DNA of 37,476 nt, taken from IMG/VR virus record IMGVR_UViG_3300032087_004624, positions 1 through 37,476 of that record; one strand, written 5' to 3'. The DNA comes from a virus. Position numbers and translations under genes: made by a program. The notes beneath the pieces are model-generated. The model saw only the letters and a program-made list of their open reading frames with translations, did not search any database and had not been told where the DNA came from. The first letter of the stretch is position 1. Each line of letters begins with the position of its first letter. Below are positions 1 to 24,825 of this stretch, one piece after another.

Positions 1-172
1 ACTGTACCAATGTATTACGAGCTATTGTTACTAAAGACTCATTACCGATTGTACCAAATTGTAACTCTACTTTTTTAGTAGCTGCTAAAGCTGTAAGTTG
101 TAAACAGCTTTTAAAATAATCTGCGGTAATCATATTACCATAACAAGGTGTACCTATAAATATTTTTGTCAT
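1..172 (-). CDS. Glycosyltransferase-like protein, C-terminal part outside window
   Basis: The gene starts at the ATG at 172-170 on the minus strand and runs off the left edge, leaving 57 residues. They open MTKIFIGTPCYG and later read GNESLVTIARNTLVQ. This pattern (first beta strand followed by GTPCYG, then an ARNxLV segment) matches the GT-A-like glycosyltransferases I know from marine phages, in which the second segment lies in the nucleotide-sugar pocket. The start overlaps the stop of the upstream oxygenase gene as ATGA, so it is the last visible member of a coupled operon. A role in modifying surface polysaccharide or virion glycans is inference. The catalytic DxD region is not in the window. 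Confidence 0.55.
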   Translation of the reverse strand, partial: MTKIFIGTPCYGNMITADYFKSCLQLTALAATKKVELQFGTIGNESLVTIARNTLVQ

Positions 173-699
173 TCAATATGTGATTTAAAATTAAAAGCTA
201 AAGATATTCTTTCTTTTTTTGAATCTATTACTCTATGAAAAGTTGTTGAATCAAATAATAACAAATCTCCTTTTTCTGGAGTAATTTTTTTTCTTGTATT
301 TTCTGGAAAAACTGCAAACTCTATGGATGAATTTTCGTTTGAAAGATACAAAACTCCTGAGCCTGAGCTGCCAAGATGTTGATGAAATTCTTGATATCCA
401 TTTTCTTGTAAAACATTTATCCAAGATTCATCAATGTAGAAGGGCACTGATTTTTTATAATTATTTAAATAAAGGTTTTCTATTTGTTCATAAATATTTT
501 TTCGTACATATTTAAATTCTTCGATATCATGAAGAATATTTTTATAAACATCATAAGATGTTTTTATGTTGCAATCCCAAGATCTTGCTAAAAAGTTTTT
601 TTTATTTTGTTCTATGTATGAAAAAATAGTCTCAAACAAATGAGGATTTATTTTTGTTTTATATACACTTACCTTTTTTAATTCTATTTCTTCAATCAT
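169..699 (-). CDS. 2OG-Fe(II) oxygenase superfamily protein (first of three)
   Basis: A 176-residue protein. The C-terminal half has the double-stranded beta-helix signature: ESWINVLQENGYQEFHQHLG (His106 and His108 as the HxH/D iron pair), then SGVLYL, then GDLLLFDSTTFHRV with the distal His155, and ERISLAFNF with Arg164 as likely 2-oxoglutarate ligand. This arrangement resembles the TIGR02466 group of phage oxygenases. Such enzymes couple 2-oxoglutarate decarboxylation to hydroxylation; the substrate cannot be read from sequence. The N-terminal 85 residues are not recognisable. The gene overlaps its neighbours by 4 bases on both sides (ATGA), so it is translated as part of the left-end operon. 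Family assignment is fairly firm; function is open. Confidence 0.75.
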   Translation of the reverse strand: MIEEIELKKVSVYKTKINPHLFETIFSYIEQNKKNFLARSWDCNIKTSYDVYKNILHDIEEFKYVRKNIYEQIENLYLNNYKKSVPFYIDESWINVLQENGYQEFHQHLGSSGSGVLYLSNENSSIEFAVFPENTRKKITPEKGDLLLFDSTTFHRVIDSKKERISLAFNFKSHIE

Positions 700-977
700 G
701 TTTTAGAATAACTCACTGTTAAATATTCTATTTTTTTTATCCATCCTTTAGGTATTGCTATTGCACCTCCGCCATGATTATCATCCTTGTCCGCGCACCA
801 TGAGCGCATAACAACAATTTTCTCAGGTGAATTGGTTACTAACCAACCTACTTCTTGGCATGTGGCTAAAGGAGCATTAACAATATCCTTTATAGGAAGC
901 CAACCTGTTTCTGTATCACGGGCATCGAGCCACGTCACACGGACCATAGGTGTTTTATTTATATCAAAAAGCGCCAT
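696..977 (-). CDS. Conserved small phage protein, function unknown
   Basis: A 93-residue protein starting MALFDINKTPMVRVTWLDARD. I do not recognise a named domain. The core VRVTWLDARDTETGW ... EVGWLVTNSPEKIVVMRSW looks like a compact all-beta fold with regularly spaced tryptophans, a pattern I associate with small conserved phage proteins. There is no signal peptide, membrane segment or cysteine cluster. It starts 14 bases inside the end of the preceding oxygenase gene and overlaps the next oxygenase by 4 bases, so it is embedded between two 2OG-Fe(II) oxygenases and is probably co-translated with them. An accessory role to these enzymes is only suggested by position. Confidence 0.7.
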   Translation of the reverse strand: MALFDINKTPMVRVTWLDARDTETGWLPIKDIVNAPLATCQEVGWLVTNSPEKIVVMRSWCADKDDNHGGGAIAIPKGWIKKIEYLTVSYSKT

Positions 978-1494
978 CTTTTTTCGTTACTTCTCTGTAA
1001 AAAATATTAAGAGTATATCTATTCGAGCTATCTCCAAACGATTGTAAATCTGAGTGTGGTATTTTTAAGCCGTTAAAAAACAAAGCTCTGTTCTCTACAA
1101 AACCTATATGTGATGATAACTTTTCATTATGTAAAAAACCTGTACCATTATTAAGTAAAGGTTCTCCCTTTACAAATAAAAGAAAGTTAGCAACATTATC
1201 TTTATCATCATCAGTATGAAACAAAGGTTCTTTGTTATTCTCTCGTAAATGTGCACTTACGGATATTGGTTCAAGATTTCTATGTGGAAAGAAATATTGT
1301 TTAATTAAATTAACTAAAGGATCACTGTGAATACTTTTGTTAAAAGTATGTCGCATACCATATAGTTGACCCTCTGGATTTTTTACTTCCTGATATTCAA
1401 GCTTTGTAACTGTATCTTGAAGTGACTTTAACGTAGCTTCATCTAAAAAATCATCAACATACATGACAAACTTTGTCTCTTTATGATGTTGCAT
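964..1494 (-). CDS. 2OG-Fe(II) oxygenase superfamily protein (second of three)
   Basis: A 176-residue protein. The iron-binding motif is FHTDDD (His93, Asp95), followed by NFLLFVKG, a turn, and FFNGLKIPHSDL with distal His147; RYTLNIFY supplies the likely 2-oxoglutarate arginine (Arg159). The order and spacing match a prolyl-4-hydroxylase-like double-stranded beta helix. It is not a recent duplicate of the flanking oxygenases, because residues outside the motifs differ. Its ATG overlaps the stop of the upstream oxygenase gene (TAATG), consistent with coupled translation. The target (protein, nucleic acid base or small metabolite) is unknown. Confidence 0.75.
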   Translation of the reverse strand: MQHHKETKFVMYVDDFLDEATLKSLQDTVTKLEYQEVKNPEGQLYGMRHTFNKSIHSDPLVNLIKQYFFPHRNLEPISVSAHLRENNKEPLFHTDDDKDNVANFLLFVKGEPLLNNGTGFLHNEKLSSHIGFVENRALFFNGLKIPHSDLQSFGDSSNRYTLNIFYREVTKKDGAF

Positions 1495-2186
1495 TAGTTT
1501 TCTAAAGGCTGTGGCTCGTCTTTTTTAATCAAATGTAAGTTAAAAGATACCGATCTTCTCTCTTCATTTGGTGTTCTAAACGGATACACGCCGTGTGCTA
1601 ACCAATTTGGAAACAGAAATATATCACCAACCTTTGGAGATTCTTGATGCTTATGTCCACTGAACGTCGCCGCTTGACCATTGAACCAACATATATCGCC
1701 AACAGTTGGGTAGTGATCTTCTTTCGCATATTCATCAGGTAGGCTTGGTGGCACTCGTAGATAACACACACCAGATAATTGACCCTCGTGTATATGAAAA
1801 GGATTAAAGTCTCCTGACCATTGGCTCACGGCCCACATAGATTCAATAACCATCTTACCAACAAACTCTGGTTTGATTGTTTCACTTGCTGGCGGTATAG
1901 AAATATAATTCTTAACCATCTCACCAATTAGTTGAACCATTGGCATAAACTCCTCTGTGTTCATCCAGTCTTGAGGATAACGCACTTCTTGTTTAACATT
2001 ACCTGCTAAGTTACCTGAATGATCAAACTCTTTTGATAATTTTTCATCCGTTAACATTTCTGTTGCTTTTTTATCTAGCATTTCAGTAATAAAGTCAGGC
2101 ATCTTGCCTCTCATTATTGTAGGACCAAAAGGTCTAATGGTGTCAAACTTTAAGACTTGCTCTTGAGGCTTTTTCTTTTTTGCCAT
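1494..2186 (-). CDS. 2OG-Fe(II) oxygenase, TIGR02466-like (third of three)
   Basis: A 230-residue protein starting MAKKKKPQEQ. An in-frame extension of 28 residues to 2270 is possible, but the ATG at 2186 has an ideal Shine-Dalgarno (AAAAGGAGTTAAT) and the extension has none. The motif SGDFNPFHIHEGQLSGVCYL gives His131-x-His133; GDIFLFPNWLAHGV gives distal His198; ERRSVSFNLHL gives the 2-oxoglutarate arginine. This is the classic TIGR02466 pattern of T4-like and marine phages. It is the first gene of the left-end minus operon and lies directly downstream of a sigma70-like promoter at 2232-2260. Confidence 0.85.
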   Translation of the reverse strand: MAKKKKPQEQVLKFDTIRPFGPTIMRGKMPDFITEMLDKKATEMLTDEKLSKEFDHSGNLAGNVKQEVRYPQDWMNTEEFMPMVQLIGEMVKNYISIPPASETIKPEFVGKMVIESMWAVSQWSGDFNPFHIHEGQLSGVCYLRVPPSLPDEYAKEDHYPTVGDICWFNGQAATFSGHKHQESPKVGDIFLFPNWLAHGVYPFRTPNEERRSVSFNLHLIKKDEPQPLEN

Positions 2187-2210
2187 ATTAACTCCTTTTT
2201 CAATTAGATA

Positions 2211-2239
2211 TTGTAATATAGCAATATTTTGCCTATAAA
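2211..2239 (+). promoter_or_regulatory. Sigma70-like promoter for the virion-protein operon
   Basis: TTGTAA (2211-2216) and TATAAA (2234-2239) are 17 bases apart on the plus strand, a good match to sigma70. The start would be near 2246, giving a leader of about 65 bases before the ATG at 2311. The spacer contains AATAT-AGCA-ATATT (2215-2228), an AT-rich inverted repeat. Confidence 0.5.
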
Positions 2240-2260
2240 TAAATAGATTATTATCTTCAA
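2232..2260 (-). promoter_or_regulatory. Sigma70-like promoter for the left-end oxygenase operon
   Basis: On the minus strand TTGAAG (2260-2255) and TATAGG (2237-2232) are separated by 17 bases. Transcription would start near 2225, leaving a short leader before the ATG at 2186. It faces the plus-strand promoter at 2211-2239 and partly overlaps it. Prediction only. Confidence 0.5.
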
Positions 2261-2278
2261 GTTTATCCAACTTGCCCC

Positions 2279-13925: not shown

Positions 13926-15499
13926 GCGTAAAGTTCCTTAAAAACATACCCGCGATCATTCCGAGTAATAAATAAATTTTTTCTTGCTCTAGTCATTCCC
14001 GTGTAAAAAACTTTTCGCAAGTCATTAATGTTTTCTCTGAGTGCAGCTTGAGCACTTGGAGATATGTTTGAAAATAAAATGACGTTATCAGCTTCTCCTC
14101 CTTTCACGCCGTAAATTGTATTGACAGTAATTTGTGGTTCTGAATTTATATTGATGTTACGTTCCATAACTTTTTCAATGTAGGTTCTATCACCCGCGTT
14201 TACTGTGTCTAATGCTTCATGCCAAGGCACATCTTTATCTAATAGTAAACCTAAATCACAAAGACCATCATAATTATATTTTGCATCAATATCTAAATTT
14301 TTAAATTGTTTTGCACCTGTTTTTAAAGCACCGTAAGGTTTCTTTTTATTTCGTGTTGACATAAAATTAAATAAATTTTTTATGCTATCCGCATATACTT
14401 CTCCGCCTTCTTGTATTTTTTTCCAAGTGTTGATTGCGTAAATAACTTCTTCTTTTATTGAAAGTGTTTTAAATTTTTTATAGAACATTCCATGTTGTCG
14501 TAATGTTCGAACTACATTGTCTAACATATAACCACAGGTAGCTAAGAAGTAATAAGATCCTTCTAACCTATAATTTATAAATTTTTCATTATCCAGATAA
14601 TGTATATTACCACCTTCGTGAACCGCTTCCCATTGTTTTTGTTCTCTTAACTCTGGAGAGATGCGTTCAATAAGTTTTTTTGACTTGTCTGCTATCAATT
14701 TTGGTACTCTATATGACTTATTTAACACTTTAGATTGACCTTCTAAGTTCTTGAAAAACAAGGATTCTGCTCCAGCCCAGTCAAATATCTCTTGATCATC
14801 ATCACCAGCAATGTAAACTCTCTCCGCTTGATTAATAAATTTTAAAATCATAGCCCATTGTAAACGTGTAAGATCTTGAGCTTCATCAACAATGACAACT
14901 TTTAATTTTGGAACATGAACATCCTCGTAAACAATTTTTTCAATACTATCTGTAAAGTCAAAGACTTGATTTTTATCTTTGTACTTTCTCAATGTGTCTG
15001 CAATAAATTGCAAAGTAAGATAGCCCCCATCTAATGATCGTGATACTTTATGAAATGTTTTTAGGTCTTGCATTCTTTGACGCGCTAAATCAACTAAACG
15101 TATGTAAGGATTATCGCTTATACTTCGACCCATTTCATCGACATCTAAATCACCTCGCATATTTATATCCATTGTTATTTTTTGTGATCTACATAACTCG
15201 GCAAACTCATACCAATTTTTTGGTTTCATTTTATTCTGTGGTTGAAAGCCTCCTATCTTCCAAGCAATGCTATGCAAAGTTTTAAAGTATTCAAATTTTT
15301 TAGCGTCGACTTTCAAAAGTTTTGTCGCCCTACTTATCGCTTCGAGTCTGGCTTTGCGAGTGAATGTAAAAAATCCAATGTCTTCGGGTGTACAGTGATC
15401 TTGCAACTCCCGTTCTATAATATCAAGAAGAGTTTTAGTTTTACCTGTTCCTGGTGGACCAAATATTTTTAAAGTATTTTTATTTAAATTTTTTAACAC
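13922..15499 (-). CDS. UvrD/Rep-like superfamily 1 DNA helicase
   Basis: A 525-residue protein starting at GTG (15499) behind a good GGAGG site. Motif I is GPPGTGKT at residues 14-21, then a Q-rich helical part with FFTFTRKARLEA (motif Ia), motif II VDEAQD near 203, motif III AGDDDQEIFDWAGA near 236, motif V TIYGVKGGEADN near 466 and motif VI VFYTGMTRARKNLF near 500. These are all SF1A signatures; the length is short compared with UvrD (about 720), in keeping with Dda-like phage helicases. It likely unwinds DNA 3'-5' at forks or removes bound proteins. The gene sits between the methyltransferase (7-base overlap) and polymerase. Confidence 0.9.
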   Translation of the reverse strand: MLKNLNKNTLKIFGPPGTGKTKTLLDIIERELQDHCTPEDIGFFTFTRKARLEAISRATKLLKVDAKKFEYFKTLHSIAWKIGGFQPQNKMKPKNWYEFAELCRSQKITMDINMRGDLDVDEMGRSISDNPYIRLVDLARQRMQDLKTFHKVSRSLDGGYLTLQFIADTLRKYKDKNQVFDFTDSIEKIVYEDVHVPKLKVVIVDEAQDLTRLQWAMILKFINQAERVYIAGDDDQEIFDWAGAESLFFKNLEGQSKVLNKSYRVPKLIADKSKKLIERISPELREQKQWEAVHEGGNIHYLDNEKFINYRLEGSYYFLATCGYMLDNVVRTLRQHGMFYKKFKTLSIKEEVIYAINTWKKIQEGGEVYADSIKNLFNFMSTRNKKKPYGALKTGAKQFKNLDIDAKYNYDGLCDLGLLLDKDVPWHEALDTVNAGDRTYIEKVMERNININSEPQITVNTIYGVKGGEADNVILFSNISPSAQAALRENINDLRKVFYTGMTRARKNLFITRNDRGYVFKELYA

Positions 15500-16461
15500 T
15501 GTTCCTCCACTTGTAAAATTGATTGTGCAATGAAGTAAGGTATTTGCGGTACTAAACTATTTCCTAGTCCTTTAAGTCTGTCCACCCTATTGGGTATCCC
15601 ATGAGCCACTCTACCCAGTTCGGGTTCAATGTCCCACCAGTTTTGTCCTTGTTGTCCGTGTGCTGCACTGTTACGTCCAAAGTGTCTCTGCTGACTTTCC
15701 CATTCCTTATTCTGCCTCCTATGTATCCTCCCTTGCCGTCCCTCGATGTTGGTGTCGGCCATAGTTTCGCCTCTTTTGATAGACTCTGTTGTTTCGCTGT
15801 GTCCATGTTTTTCCAATCCGAGTTCAACGGAGTCGGCCAAAGTCTCTTCTCCCTTACTTGATCGGCTAATCGTATCTGTATCTGCTGACCGCTCGGTCGT
15901 TTCAAGTGGCCCGCGTCTAGTGCTTTCTGTATTCCCGGTAGGTTCGATCCGCCCGCCATGTTGTCTGGCGTTCGCCACAATCCAGATTCTTTCTCTTTGG
16001 TGTTTTGCACCGACGCTCGAAGCTGAAATACTAAATGTCCTTGCGGAGTAACCTTCACTTTCCAAGTTCTCGAGTACGGTGTCGAGACCGAGTTTAATGT
16101 GTCCACTAACGTTTTCTCCAATAACCCAAGACGGTCTGAGTTCTTTGATAAGTCTAAAATACTCTGGCCAGAGGTGTCTCGGATCTTCTTCACCTTTTTT
16201 TCTACCTGCGACGGAGAAAGGTTGGCAAGGGTATCCACCTGTGATGATGTCGATAGGCCCAATTCCATCTGCTTTAAGTCTTTCATAGTTTAACTCCTTT
16301 ATATCTTCATATTGTTTAACGCTTGGCCATTGTTTTTTTAAAACTTTTTTTGAATACTTATCAATATCACAAAACGCTACTGTTTCAAAACCACCCGTGG
16401 CTTCTAGTCCTAAACTGAAGCCACCGATACCACTAAATAAATCTAAGTGTTTTAATTTCAT
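15493..16461 (-). CDS. C5-cytosine DNA methyltransferase (Dcm type)
   Basis: A 322-residue enzyme. Motif I is LDLFSGIGGFSLGL (residues 6-19), motif IV GGYPCQPFSVAG with catalytic Cys79, motif VI ENV (116-118), motif VIII QRERIWIVA (155-163), and motifs IX/X RLKGLGNSLVPQ near 295-306. It transfers methyl from S-adenosylmethionine to cytosine C5, probably protecting phage DNA from host restriction. The part between motifs VIII and IX (about 165-285), where target recognition should lie, is unusually hydrophilic and low in complexity (many E, R, T, S, G), with repeated ADT/ADS. That stretch also encodes another protein in a second frame (15564-16286). Its own ribosome site is weak. No cognate restriction enzyme is adjacent. 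Confidence 0.92.
   Translation of the reverse strand: MKLKHLDLFSGIGGFSLGLEATGGFETVAFCDIDKYSKKVLKKQWPSVKQYEDIKELNYERLKADGIGPIDIITGGYPCQPFSVAGRKKGEEDPRHLWPEYFRLIKELRPSWVIGENVSGHIKLGLDTVLENLESEGYSARTFSISASSVGAKHQRERIWIVANARQHGGRIEPTGNTESTRRGPLETTERSADTDTISRSSKGEETLADSVELGLEKHGHSETTESIKRGETMADTNIEGRQGRIHRRQNKEWESQQRHFGRNSAAHGQQGQNWWDIEPELGRVAHGIPNRVDRLKGLGNSLVPQIPYFIAQSILQVEEQC
15564..16286 (-). CDS. Overlapping gene nested in the methyltransferase: WPTP/GWT-type phage protein
   Basis: A 240-residue reading frame wholly inside the methyltransferase gene, same strand, other frame. Its ATG (16286) is preceded by AAAGGAGTTAAACT, matching this phage's best ribosome sites and stronger than that of the methyltransferase itself. 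The protein has tryptophan motifs LWRTPDN (103-109), LWPTPLNSD (149-157) and LWPTPTSRD (175-183), and ends LNPNWVEWLMG then YPIGWTDLKD (220-240). I recognise this pattern from phage proteins usually called hypothetical and often found near C5-methyltransferases. The WPTP codons are the same bases that give ADT/ADS repeats in the methyltransferase. Function is unknown; a partner or specificity role for the methyltransferase is inference. Confidence 0.75.
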   Translation of the reverse strand: MKDLKQMELGLSTSSQVDTLANLSPSQVEKKVKKIRDTSGQSILDLSKNSDRLGLLEKTLVDTLNSVSTPYSRTWKVKVTPQGHLVFQLRASVQNTKEKESGLWRTPDNMAGGSNLPGIQKALDAGHLKRPSGQQIQIRLADQVREKRLWPTPLNSDWKNMDTAKQQSLSKEAKLWPTPTSRDGKGGYIGGRIRNGKVSRDTLDVTVQHTDNKDKTGGTLNPNWVEWLMGYPIGWTDLKD

Positions 16462-16793: not shown

Positions 16794-18299
16794 TTAAAAT
16801 GGTACTTCATCTTCTTGATCCTTGGTTGGTAATGGTGCATTGTCAAAATTAACTGCTGGCATATACCACAAGTGTTCTAGCGCACCCTTTACTCTTTTCT
16901 TTTTACTGCCTCCTTCAAGTTCTCGAATGCGTCCACAAATTTGTGTTTCATTATATTCCGTAAATTTTCTTGATTTTAAAAATGTCTCCAAAGCGCTTAG
17001 TGTAAACCAAGATACATCTTCTTTATCTGTAAAAACTTTATCAATTAAAACTTCGTCAATGGATAATGCTTCACCATTCTCACGCATAAAAGATCTTAGG
17101 TGCTCATCAAATCTACCTTGCTTACTAATTTCTTTTGGCATTGGAATAATGTCACAGCCCTCCAATAAAAAATTTATTTTAGCTGCCCAATCAACTTCTT
17201 TCATTCGTGGTGGTAACTCTGTTAAAACATCCATACATTTTTTTCTAAATCTATTTTGATCATACAAAGTATCTGTATCTAATTCGATACGTTTACCATC
17301 AACATTTAAAAACCAAACGGGTTCATCACTTTCTAATTTTTGTAAGTCTGTTAATTGATGTTGATATGCTGAACCAATACCATGCTTACGTAATTTACAT
17401 TGCACAGGATTACATACCGAACACATTGGTTGATCTTTACACTTGTACTGATAATCTTGTTTTTCATGTTGCTTAATTGTTTTATTAACTTGTTCTATTG
17501 ATAGTTCTGGTTCGAAGTATTGATAATTAAATTTACCAATCTTTGTTTGCCAATTATCGGGAAAAGCTTTTTTTGCATACACTGCATACTGATATAAAAC
17601 TTGATCTCTACCACCTTCAGATATACCCATTGCCATTAATGTTTGAAGACAAGGTGGACCATCGTCTAATTCTTTATTCGTTTCTCTCTTTGCTTTTTTT
17701 CTAGATAATTGCTCTTTAGTAATTGATATTTTTTCTGCTGCATCTAAAAATTGTTCAAGGGTAAGACTAGATCCATCGTCTGCAAATGCATATCGAAAAG
17801 ATTCATCTCCACCAAAGTAAGGTAAATTTAAAAAGTTACCTACGTCTCCTCGTTCGGTGTTAAGACTAATTTGTTTTGGAAAAACTTCTGTGTCTGCATG
17901 ACCGAGATCCGCGGCCCATTCAATTAATTTAGATCGTAATAATTTTGCTGGTACAAATTCTTGTAAGAAAACAAAAATGTGAGCTCCACCACTTTTTGAA
18001 CGACAAACAATTAAAGGTAATTCTAATTTTTTTATTTCGTCGACAATAGACTGATGATCAATAGGATAGGTGTCAACATCAATGCAACCCCATTGACAAG
18101 CACTATCATCATTAATAGGAACAATGCCAAGACTAGGGTCTTTACCAAGTAAATGATTTTCCCAAAGGGTATCTGTAACAATTGCTTTTTTAATAAAAGC
18201 TTTACCACCCTTTTTTCCTTTTTCGTCAAGCTCGCCAGCCACATACTGCCCGTGCGCTCTTTCTAAACCTGTAAATAAACTTTTAAATCTTTTAAACAT
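16794..18299 (-). CDS. Archaeo-eukaryotic-type primase with cysteine cluster
   Basis: A 501-residue protein. The primase/polymerase core has WGCIDVDTYP (metal-binding Asp74 and Asp76), CRSKSGGAHIFVFL (the SxH motif, 102-107), TEVFPKQ near 137 and GNFLNLPYFGG near 153. These match AEP-family primases such as the TOTE-type group. A cysteine cluster CKDQPMCSVCNPVQC near 286-300, followed by KLRKHGIG, looks like an iron-sulfur or zinc site of PriCT-like phage primases. The C-terminal part is helical, and the last residues are EDEVPF, like the tip of bacterial SSB. No Walker motif is present, so it is not a primase-helicase fusion. It makes primers for the polymerase. Its ribosome site can be sequestered in the upstream leader. 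Confidence 0.85.
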   Translation of the reverse strand: MFKRFKSLFTGLERAHGQYVAGELDEKGKKGGKAFIKKAIVTDTLWENHLLGKDPSLGIVPINDDSACQWGCIDVDTYPIDHQSIVDEIKKLELPLIVCRSKSGGAHIFVFLQEFVPAKLLRSKLIEWAADLGHADTEVFPKQISLNTERGDVGNFLNLPYFGGDESFRYAFADDGSSLTLEQFLDAAEKISITKEQLSRKKAKRETNKELDDGPPCLQTLMAMGISEGGRDQVLYQYAVYAKKAFPDNWQTKIGKFNYQYFEPELSIEQVNKTIKQHEKQDYQYKCKDQPMCSVCNPVQCKLRKHGIGSAYQHQLTDLQKLESDEPVWFLNVDGKRIELDTDTLYDQNRFRKKCMDVLTELPPRMKEVDWAAKINFLLEGCDIIPMPKEISKQGRFDEHLRSFMRENGEALSIDEVLIDKVFTDKEDVSWFTLSALETFLKSRKFTEYNETQICGRIRELEGGSKKKRVKGALEHLWYMPAVNFDNAPLPTKDQEDEVPF

Positions 18300-19889: not shown

Positions 19890-20103
19890 CGTAACTCCTT
19901 ATGTTAATCGTTGCAGCTAACAACTTATAACTTCTTTACATGAAAGTATATCTGCTTGTCAACAAAAGAAAAAGGCTAGGAGTCGAGTTCCTAGCCTAAT
20001 TCTTTTAGCCTTGATCTGGGACGAAAGGAGTTACGTAAATAACAGTACCAAATCAATATTACATTTAGTTGTTTTTTATGCATTTTACAACTATAAAGGG
20101 CAA
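19890..20103. promoter_or_regulatory. Divergent early control region
   Basis: This gap separates the minus replication operon from the plus early operon. For the minus strand TTGACA (19962-19957) is followed by a weak -10 (TAAAGA, 18 bases on); AAGTTATAAG (minus strand, within 19922-19932) lies just downstream. A strong hairpin is annotated separately. For the plus strand CGAAAGGAGTTACGTA (20022-20037) is an excellent ribosome site with no start codon behind it. No clear plus-strand promoter pair could be chosen. Confidence 0.4.
19973..19997 (-). terminator. Hairpin with T-rich flank, minus-oriented terminator
   Basis: AGGCTAGGA (19973-19981) pairs with TCCTAGCCT (19989-19997), a perfect 9-bp stem with a 7-base loop. 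On the minus strand the stem is followed by TTTTTCTTTT, a good intrinsic terminator; on the plus strand by AATTCTTTT, weaker. It lies upstream of the minus operon, so it may block readthrough from antisense transcription of the plus operon, or act as an attenuator or insulator. Confidence 0.6.
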
Positions 20104-21588
20104 ATGGAGTTACAATATCGTTTCAAAACGAAACCTTTTGTACATCAGAAAAAAGCATTAGAAGAGTCATGGAGCCGTGACAGTTTTGCTTATTTCATGG
20201 AGATGGGCACAGGTAAATCAAAGGTTTTAATAGATAATATTTGTTTATTATATTTAACAAATAAAATTAAAGGCGCGTTAGTAGTTGCACCTAAAGGTGT
20301 TTATCGTAATTGGAAAGTAGAACAATTACCCGCGCACATGTCACCACTAATTGAAGATTATGATGTGTATGATTGGAATCCTGTGGATACAATTAAAGAA
20401 AAAAAGAGACGTAATGATTTCTTATATAAAGATGGAAATAAATTTAAAATTTTTTTAATGAACGTTGAAGCGTTCTCAAGTGTTAAAGGTAAAAAGATTG
20501 CTGATAAATTTTTACAATTATATCCAGCGATGTTTGCGATCGATGAGTCTACGACGATTAAAAATCCTAAAGCTGCTAGAACTAAAAGTATAATGAAACT
20601 TGGTACACTAGCGAGGTATCGTCGGATCCTGACTGGTTCGCCCGTGACCCGCAGTCCGTTGGATTTATTTTCTCAATGTTATTTCTTGGACCCAAAACAT
20701 TTACAACAACCAAGTTATTGGTCTTTTAAAAATAAATATTGTGTCATGGAAACAGGTTATGCAGCAGATTATACTTATCAAAAAGTTCTTGGCTATCAAC
20801 GTCTTAGTGACCTTACAGGTTTGTTAAATAATTTTTCTTTTCGTGTAAAAAAAGATGACTGTTTAGATCTTCCTCCAAAAACATTTGTTACCAGGGAAGT
20901 ACAAATGAATAAAAAACAAGAAGATGCATATTTACAAATGCAAGCATTACAAATTGCTAGACTAGACTCAGGAGAAGAAACAACGGCTGTTGCAAAACTT
21001 ACAATGATGTTACGTCTGCATCAAATCGCTTGCGGTTTTTTAGTTACCGATGATGATGGCATTGTCGATCTTCATGATGAAAAAGGAATGATCCCAAGAT
21101 TGGAAACATTAATGGATTGTTTAGATGAGATTGATGGTAAAGTTATTATCTGGGCAAACTATCGTCACAACATTGAACACATAGTAAAAGCAATTACAAA
21201 AAAGTATGACAATCATTCTATTGTAGAATCTTTTTATGGAGGAACAAAAGATAAAGAAAGAGTTGACATCATAGAAAAATTTAAAGATCCAAACTCTGAG
21301 CTGCAATATCTTGTCGCCAATCCAAAGACAGGTGGGTACGGTTTAAACTTAACTGTGTCAAAAACAATTATTTATTATTCTAATAATTATGACTTAGAAG
21401 TACGCATTCAATCGGAAGATCGTATTCATCGATATGGCCAAGATCAAAAAACTTTATATGTTGATCTACAATGTGTTGGCACAGTCGATGAACACATAAT
21501 CGCTAATTTGGTAGGAAAAGTCAAGATTTCCAACAAAGTTCTAAATGAACAGTACCGTGATTGGATAAAAGTAATAAAAAAAACTTGA
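20104..21588 (+). CDS. SNF2-family DNA helicase/translocase
   Basis: A 494-residue protein from ATG 20104 (MELQYRFKTKPFVHQKKALE). Upstream in-frame codons have only a TTG start and cross an unrelated ribosome-site sequence, so I reject them. SF2 motifs: FMEMGTGKSKV (Walker A, 35-39), ALVVAPKGVYRNW (Ia), AIDESTTIKNP (motif II, DEST near 146), RILTGSPVTRSP (III), KVIIWANYRHN (IV), TGGYGLNLT near 411 (V) and QSEDRIHRYGQ near 435 (VI). The SNF2 core is complete without accessory domains. Such phage proteins probably remodel DNA-protein complexes or assist recombination. The ribosome site is weak (AAGGG). Confidence 0.88.
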   Translation: MELQYRFKTKPFVHQKKALEESWSRDSFAYFMEMGTGKSKVLIDNICLLYLTNKIKGALVVAPKGVYRNWKVEQLPAHMSPLIEDYDVYDWNPVDTIKEKKRRNDFLYKDGNKFKIFLMNVEAFSSVKGKKIADKFLQLYPAMFAIDESTTIKNPKAARTKSIMKLGTLARYRRILTGSPVTRSPLDLFSQCYFLDPKHLQQPSYWSFKNKYCVMETGYAADYTYQKVLGYQRLSDLTGLLNNFSFRVKKDDCLDLPPKTFVTREVQMNKKQEDAYLQMQALQIARLDSGEETTAVAKLTMMLRLHQIACGFLVTDDDGIVDLHDEKGMIPRLETLMDCLDEIDGKVIIWANYRHNIEHIVKAITKKYDNHSIVESFYGGTKDKERVDIIEKFKDPNSELQYLVANPKTGGYGLNLTVSKTIIYYSNNYDLEVRIQSEDRIHRYGQDQKTLYVDLQCVGTVDEHIIANLVGKVKISNKVLNEQYRDWIKVIKKT

Positions 21589-23502: not shown

Positions 23503-23671
23503 GGAAGTTTTTACCTGTCCTGATTGTAATAAAGTTCACGTTACATTTTGGGATAATGTTAAAAAAATTTATAGTCAACAAGAGTGGCAATATATCGTAG
23601 ATCAAGGCGTACAAGCATTGAAGAAAATTACAAATGTAATGCCTATATCTGATGATCCAAAAGTATTTTAA
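23465..23671 (+). CDS. Small protein with one CxxC, function unknown
   Basis: A 68-residue protein starting MVTSSHLPRSPIKEVFTCPD. FTCPDCNKVHVTFW resembles the first half of a zinc ribbon, but no second cysteine pair follows, so metal binding would need a dimer. The rest is a helix (QQEWQYIVDQGVQALKKITN). AAGGAGAGAC gives a good ribosome site. It is the last gene before the iteron cluster. Confidence 0.6.
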   Translation: MVTSSHLPRSPIKEVFTCPDCNKVHVTFWDNVKKIYSQQEWQYIVDQGVQALKKITNVMPISDDPKVF

Positions 23672-23733
23672 AGTTCTCTCTATATAAGTAATTATTTTGA
23701 AAAAAATATTTTTTTACTTTTTGCTCAAATATG

Positions 23734-23841
23734 AGGTAACACAGGTAACATTTGGCTACAACATGCAGAAAACCTACAAAAAAGTGTTACCTATTGTGTT
23801 ACCTGAGAGACTTTTTTTCAGGTAACAGGTAACAGGTATAA
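23734..23841. repeat. GGTAACA iteron cluster with long hairpin, upstream of terS
   Basis: GGTAACA occurs at 23735-23741, 23744-23750, 23821-23827 and 23828-23834, and inverted (TGTTACC) at 23785-23791 and 23797-23803; a degenerate seventh is at 23835-23841. The first four form a hairpin: AGGTAACACA (23734-23743) with TGTGTTACCT (23795-23804) and GGTAACA with TGTTACC inside, 17 bp with a 3-base bulge. The whole gap 23672-23918 has no gene; it also contains poly-A/T tracts and a CGCGCGCG run (23855-23862). Candidate terminase recognition (pac/cos) or replication origin. Confidence 0.6.
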
Positions 23842-23918
23842 ACCTTTCTGGTATCGCGCGCGGGGGTAAAATGGTAAAAATTTTAATTTTGATAAAAATG
23901 CTGTATAAGGGGTAAACT

Positions 23919-24434
23919 ATGAAAAAAACTAATATTGTTGAAATAACTCCTCAACAAAGAAAATTTTGTGAGTTAATTATTATGTATGATGGCGAATGGA
24001 CAGCAACTCAATGTGCCATTGAAGCAGGATATTCTGAAAAGTCAGCTAGAGTTATTGCTAGTCAATTACAAAATAGAGAGAAGTATCCAAAAGTTTATGA
24101 TTATTTGCTAGAGCTAAGAGAAGAGCAACACAAAAAATATCATGTCAATTATAATCGTCACATGAGAAGGCTTGCGAGTTTATCAAAAGCAGCAGAAGAA
24201 AAAGGCAATTATACGGCAGCCGTAAGTGCTGAAGTTTCAAGAGGAAAAGCAGCAGGTTTGTATGTTGATAGAAAAGAAATTTTGACAGGATCAATTGATA
24301 GTATGCCTAAGGCAGAGGTTGAAAGAAGACTTGCTGACTTGAAAAAAAGGTTTCCAAAAGTAGTAAATGCACTTTCACGTGAAAAGAAAAAAGGAAATGA
24401 AAGAGAAGAATATTTGGAAAACGATAAGACTTAA
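23919..24434 (+). CDS. terS: Terminase small subunit
   Basis: A 171-residue protein. The N-terminal part TPQQRKFCELIIMYDGEWTA then TQCAIEAGYSEKSARVIASQ and LQNREKYPKVYDYL is the Terminase_2 (PF03592) DNA-binding helix-turn-helix pattern (QxxFxE ... ATQxAIxAGYS ... AxxxASxLL). A helical oligomerisation part follows, with a basic C-terminal tail (ALSREKKKGNEREEY). It binds phage DNA at the packaging start and feeds it to the large subunit. Ribosome site AGGGG. It is separated from terL (27251) by a 2.8-kb accessory island, which is unusual. The GGTAACA cluster just upstream is its likely target by position. Confidence 0.85.
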   Translation: MKKTNIVEITPQQRKFCELIIMYDGEWTATQCAIEAGYSEKSARVIASQLQNREKYPKVYDYLLELREEQHKKYHVNYNRHMRRLASLSKAAEEKGNYTAAVSAEVSRGKAAGLYVDRKEILTGSIDSMPKAEVERRLADLKKRFPKVVNALSREKKKGNEREEYLENDKT

Positions 24435-24825
24435 CAGTAATATTGTTAAGTGGGATAGAGTTGAATCTAAAACATCTCCTGGAATCCCTGATTTACATGG
24501 GTTTTTTAAAGATATTGATACAGGCTTTGGACATACGTTTTGGGTCGAATTAAAATTAACTAAGACTAACAAAGTTTTGTTAAGTTCTAAGCAAATTGCA
24601 TGGCATCATCGCTTTGAAAAGTATGGTGGAACATCTTTCATCTGCGTTAAGGCCCTCTTACAGAGGTCACTGCTGATATATGTGGGAAAAAGGGCCACGG
24701 ATCTCGGGGAAAAAGGCTTGAAGCTCGCCCCAGACTTGGTCATGACCGAAACATGGGCCGAGGACCGCTTTGTGGAGCTCGTAAAAATACGCCAAAAATA
24801 CGCCAAACCCTACGCCTCTATATAG
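24367..24825 (+). CDS. VRR-NUC-like nuclease
   Basis: A 152-residue protein (start uncertain: ATG 24367 or ATG 24397). The catalytic pattern is SKTSPGIPDLHG, then FWVELKLTKTNKVLLSSKQI, then FEKYGGTSFICVKA: G-x-P-D, E-x-K and a glutamine in helix 3, as in VRR-NUC/Holliday-junction-resolvase-like PD-(D/E)xK enzymes (PF08774). It would cut branched DNA or act in repair or recombination. Base composition turns GC-richer in the second half, and the last residues (RQKYAKPYASI) are encoded by a copy of the boundary repeat, suggesting a re-made C terminus. It overlaps terS by 68 bases. Confidence 0.75.
   Translation: MHFHVKRKKEMKEKNIWKTIRLNSNIVKWDRVESKTSPGIPDLHGFFKDIDTGFGHTFWVELKLTKTNKVLLSSKQIAWHHRFEKYGGTSFICVKALLQRSLLIYVGKRATDLGEKGLKLAPDLVMTETWAEDRFVELVKIRQKYAKPYASI

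Follow-up and report, generated by a model that had tools for sequence, protein, structure and literature searches.

A cluster of short iterons lying directly upstream of the terminase small-subunit gene, terS, in a 37,476-nt stretch of viral DNA (IMG/VR record IMGVR_UViG_3300032087_004624, positions 1 to 37,476; here, the window) is probably a phage-encoded replication origin of the P4 crr/ori type, judging from its sequence, its conservation and the genes with which such iterons associate. The first-pass annotation of this DNA had allowed two roles, a TerS-binding pac or cos site or an iteron-bearing origin. Our analysis favours the latter and makes the former less likely, because the same iterons adjoin primase-helicase genes in many phages without a neighbouring terS, P4 crr and ori share this kind of layout, and in relatives another such cluster precedes the primase gene.

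All six GGTAACA 7-mers described in that annotation are exact and fall within 100 bp, in the layout ++ -- ++: a direct pair, R1 (23735..23741, +) and R2 (23744..23750, +), whose starts are 9 bp apart, the same distance as in P4 crr; an inverted pair, R3 (23785..23791, -) and R4 (23797..23803, -); and R5 (23821..23827, +) and R6 (23828..23834, +), arranged head to tail. Beside R1/R2 is an AT-rich tract (23690..23733), its richness equalled in 0.2% of the window's 50-bp windows, which by composition and position is a candidate DNA-unwinding element. Between the inverted pairs lies the conserved element ACAACATGCAGAAAAC (23758..23773, +), recognisable by eye in the distant phage G001, and beyond R6 is a conserved GGTATCGCGCGCG box (23850..23862). 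The motif CGCGCGCG, noted earlier as following the iterons, is present at 23855-23862 and also adjoins the iterons of phage 023Pt_psg01. As had been remarked, the gap is otherwise empty, with no other convincing gene between a 68-aa ORF ending at 23671 and the next gene, terS (23919..24434, +), whose assignment as the terminase small subunit is borne out by PHROG 51 (8.7e-16) and Pfam PF03592. After terS comes a gene for a VRR-NUC-like nuclease (24367..24825, +; PHROG 2165 and a weak PF08774 match), and VRR-NUC genes also come after iterons in several unrelated primase phages.

No other 7-mer cluster in the window comes close to the array in strength (p ~1e-10.8; the runner-up, at ~1e-4, is in coding DNA). 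Six copies of any one 7-mer within 107 bp occurred in none of 300 Markov-shuffled windows, where the maximum was four, and the window as a whole holds nine copies of GGTAACA versus a shuffle mean of 3.6. No second GGTAACA cluster was found in these 37 kb, which may be an incomplete contig, even with one mismatch allowed. The first four copies can indeed pair, as the annotation proposed, into a bulged hairpin of 17 base pairs (10 + 7, interrupted by a 3-nt bulge; z = -3.4 when folded as single-stranded DNA), and so could be read as an RNA or DNA element acting through its fold. This pairing, however, arises because the iterons are inverted, which explains it fully; R3 mismatches such as TGTTACT are tolerated, the third, tandem pair R5/R6 lies outside the hairpin, and Rfam returned sub-threshold matches only. 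We rejected the fold element as highly improbable.

The annotation had proposed a check on whether repeat spacing is conserved in relatives. In IMG/VR relatives with TerS 81-99% identical, the iteron sites are kept in the same order, R3 or R4 being degenerate in some. Identity between two clades is 99% for R1+R2, 90% for R3, 96% for R4 and 100% for R5R6, and 92% over 23853-23863 in the GGTATCGCGCGCG box, but 73% in the long central spacer, 71% in the AT tract, 42% in the leader to terS and 31-47% in the gaps around and after R3-R4. Near-invariant iterons separated by mostly poorly conserved DNA are the pattern of protein-binding sites. The protein could be a phage regulator for which the iterons are an operator, controlling the terS/late operon and, where relatives have a cluster there, that of the primase: clusters do lie in long gaps upstream of operons, those of terS and primase both in some phages, and the leader has a weak TTGATA/TAAACT promoter match. 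Promoter matches are nevertheless at chance (4 found, 3.9 expected), no terminator was found, the leader is far less conserved than the iterons, and the clusters of most unrelated phages follow the 3' end of a primase-helicase gene, all of which make an operator unlikely.

Among known origins, those of P4 resemble the element in several respects. The type-1 repeats of P4 are bound by its alpha primase-helicase, a fusion of a primase with an SF3 helicase. The P4 record annotates the crr type-1 repeats at offsets 0+, 9+, 52-, 70- and 84+, with an AT tract alongside, to be compared with 0+, 9+, 50-, 62-, 86+ and 93+ in the window; the iteron extracted from that record, GGTGAACA, is nearly the same as GGTAACA, and P4 crr/ori and the window thus nearly agree in iteron, ++ -- + geometry and spacing, and both have an adjoining AT-rich tract. 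As a positive control, our de novo scan recovered P4 ori unaided. The two differ in that P4 crr lies by the alpha gene, whereas the window array lies by terS (23.73-23.84 kb), 5.4 kb from the gene (16.79-18.30 kb) of a TOTE-type primase without an SF3 helicase, and in that P4 has two iteron sites, ori and crr, while the contig, possibly a fragment, has one. By Pfam scan, the replication proteins of the window are the TOTE-type archaeo-eukaryotic primase (16794..18299, -; PF22548, 5.4e-13), with homologues in iteron-carrying phages, PolA, and UvrD- and SNF2-type helicases (SNF2 at 20011..21588, +; PF00176), and no SF3/D5 helicase domain was detected among them in this possibly incomplete contig. 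The element most likely works like a P4-type origin in a contig where two defining features of P4, the SF3 initiator and the two sites, are not seen.

Other origins are similar in part. PICI (SaPI-like) origins, Gram-positive as well as Gram-negative, have two iteron sets around a possible melting site (PMC6092414), as does the window. In Gram-negative PICIs, where the origin lies directly 3' of pri-rep, the stretch flanked by these sets is AT-rich, and for the EcCICFT073 origin a plasmid test supports function (PMC6092414); in the window, in contrast, the AT tract flanks the array, which is not immediately 3' of the proposed initiator gene. Similarly, the annotated origin of Streptococcus phage Sfi21 (302 bp, noncoding) is AT-rich and contains GTAAC-core repeats in both orientations but, unlike the window element, it directly follows the primase gene, arranges its repeats differently and belongs to a phage of a Gram-positive host. 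GC skew, suggested earlier as a test for an origin, does switch in the window, at ~19.5-20 kb and not at 23.8 kb; since skew follows gene direction, it is uninformative here.

We then surveyed viral sequences with the pattern GGTAACANNGGTAACA-N25-45-TGTTACC, which matched at least 119 viral stretches, compared to none for a control pattern with the 7-mer reversed. Because the pattern itself prescribed the 9-bp pair and a gap of 25-45 bp, these spacings are no independent evidence in the survey; the step of 18-35 bp to the next pair was left free. In 82 of 118 cluster loci (outside the window's own family and after removal of collagen-like coding matches; loci rather than independent lineages, as some are near-duplicates), a protein of at least 350 aa is encoded within 300 bp. 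Most of these proteins are primase-helicases, with most clusters 5-27 bp from the 3' ends of their genes, and are of several kinds: VapE/DUF5906; DUF927 with Toprim and a primase zinc ribbon; NrS-1-polymerase-like; and D5_N with Herpes_UL52. One array next to a DUF927 gene recurs in E. coli, in 448 of 5426 complete genomes. At three loci (L067, L072, L080) the GGTAACA arrays adjoin a D5_N/Herpes_UL52-type primase, which suggests that an element resembling eukaryotic viruses carries these iterons too. Many exact matches to the 17-mer AGGTAACACAGGTAACA were set aside as Gly-Asn-Thr collagen-like or other coding repeats; this 17-mer is frequent in collagen-like Gly-X-Y coding repeats (the contigs behind L027, L028, L037, L048 and others), a source of false positives. 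In the literature, a search for the 7-mer alone yielded largely papers on macrophages and no comparable repeat.

Homologues of the TOTE primase occur in phage isolates of Pelagibacter, Acinetobacter, Klebsiella, Providencia, Salmonella and others, and when complete genomes of phages with such a homologue were scanned blind, iterons turned up in most. Of the phages tested, the majority carry a cluster of their own upstream of terS. The 7-mer differs by lineage (GGTAACA, GTGTAACC, GTAGCAG, CGTTCCA, CGGTTGC); the scan returned TGTGCCA in 023Pt_psg01, CTAGGAA in HTVC023P, GGTTCCA in Kokobel2, CGGTTGC in SH-Ab 15497, CGTTTGC in Barton, and CGTTCCA in PSA28, VLCpiS6a and PMBT28. In Barton, six of the seven genomic GGTAACA copies are inside its two clusters. 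No convincing cluster emerged from the scan in MW202510, HTVC027P or DSL-LC04; the TOTE primases of DSL-LC04 and MW202510 are ~40% identical to that of the window, and this counts against the origin reading. A tie between the GGTAACA sequence itself and the primase family was also weakened, as isolates with 34-40% primase identity gave no paired GGTAAC match; most of them carry other iterons. We also examined 79 more viral loci, whose primases are 45-98% identical. Wherever such a locus has a terS hit, iterons or iteron-like repeats occur upstream of terS, with the motif drifting to GTGTAACC, AAGTAACC, GTAACCA, GTAGCAG or a degenerate GTAATG; of the 63 loci lacking a terS match, none showed a noncoding cluster.

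These placements bear on the other role once proposed, a pac or cos-type site at which TerS would bind the iterons by its own gene and start packaging. TerS proteins bind near their own genes, and repeats adjoin terS at TerS-binding pac sites as they do here. The adjacency is moreover real and recurrent, so that TerS may bind here too: iteron-like repeats are just upstream of terS in all 16 marine relatives with terS (a scored cluster in 11, the degenerate GTAATG version in 5), and HTVC023P, SH-Ab 15497 and Barton have a cluster in the same place. Across phages, however, the repeat family seems to go with replication genes rather than with terS. GGTAACA arrays adjoin primase-helicases in many phages without a neighbouring terS; on the G001 contig, GGTAACA iterons and a TOTE primase occur but no terS was recognised; and an equal array precedes the primase in several relatives, of which Kokobel2, PSA28, VLCpiS6a and PMBT28 have their other array ~2 kb from terS. 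Furthermore, two loci (L273, L281) with TerS 34-36% identical to that of the window keep the GTAAC core, yet a third (L307) with 46% identical TerS has GTAGCAG. Motif similarity in these loci does not track TerS identity, and this is suggestive only, the primase being no clean discriminator of the three either. On balance, we consider a packaging site improbable; both this and the operator role may exist alongside that of an origin.

A second cluster just upstream of the primase gene is found in Kokobel2, PSA28, VLCpiS6a, PMBT28, SH-Ab 15497 and Barton. In the first five of these genomes the two clusters are about half a genome apart (22-25 kb of 43-48 kb), one before the primase and the other before terS or ~2 kb from it. 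Just outside the iterons, a short TTGTC...GACAA-like palindrome accompanies both clusters of PSA28 (MZ089737; ~8290 and 31230) and Kokobel2 (MW145138; ~39160 and 14150), and is also found upstream of the primase in SH-Ab 15497 and Barton.

The likely reader of the iterons is the TOTE-type primase, through its C-terminal domain (~residues 385-485; 16845..17147, -). This is the fastest-diverging part of the protein, with 22-39% identity where the N-terminal part has 48-62%, and AlphaFold2 models it as a winged helix with the order H-b-b-H-H-wing (pLDDT ~90 or more over the winged-helix part). Its best structural matches in the PDB are oriT-binding TcpK (Z 8.6), the C-terminal domain of SCCmec Cch (Z 6.9) and, slightly lower, that of SaPIbov1 Rep (Z 6.1). 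The C-terminal domain of PICI initiators modestly resembles the one modelled here; the P4 origin-binding domain was absent among the structural matches listed. For the C-terminus of VapE the model is likewise a winged helix, its elements in the same order, and it matches PriRep1-DNA (Z 6.0). Matches at Z 6-8.6 are modest, and a common fold is no proof of binding. At the sequence level, profile-profile comparison of TOTE and VapE C-termini detected no homology (probability 0.6%), and searching PDB sequences with a profile of the C-terminal alignment produced no match. The motif and the primase C-terminus co-vary only to the extent expected from shared ancestry, and TerS co-varies too.

We infer an origin composed of an AT-rich melting tract, direct and inverted pairs of 7-bp iterons, a flanking CGCGCG box and, between the inverted pairs, a conserved A-rich core. 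The TOTE-type primase would most likely bind the paired iterons from both sides via its C-terminal winged helix, melt the AT-rich DNA alongside and load the replication proteins of the phage, namely the SNF2 and UvrD helicases and PolA. Gene order, being conserved, would then account for the position of the cluster upstream of terS, whose transcription the site may also affect. It is possible, though we do not at present favour it, that GTAAC-core iterons in P4-like geometry are an origin code shared by phages and elements with different primase-helicase families (TOTE-AEP, VapE, DUF927/Toprim, NrS-1-type and D5/UL52-like), each reading it through its own C-terminal winged helix, in which case the origin design could be older than the replication enzymes or exchanged between them.

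For this marine phage group, which includes Pelagibacter phages such as HTVC023P, no described origin was found in the literature searched, and the element provides a specific, testable candidate whose proposed initiator, a TOTE-type primase, is not one of the primase-helicase fusions known from origins of this kind. Given that one short repeat is linked to origins in many unrelated phages, pattern searches could find origins in metagenomic contigs.

In another phage family, nine loci (L024, L031, L053, L054, L062, L073, L076, L079 and L086) combine GGTAACA iterons with one to seven boxes per locus of TTATCCACA, the DnaA-box consensus, every one of them within ~600 bp of the GGTAACA cluster, which also speaks for the origin reading; iterons and boxes lie upstream of a small basic protein, followed in L062 by a terL-like gene. 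Elsewhere in the window, by eye, an apparent cytosine-C5 DNA methyltransferase is encoded within the replication block (15493-16461), and two or three neighbouring ORFs at 169-2270 (- strand) resemble 2-oxoglutarate/Fe(II) oxygenase-type proteins.
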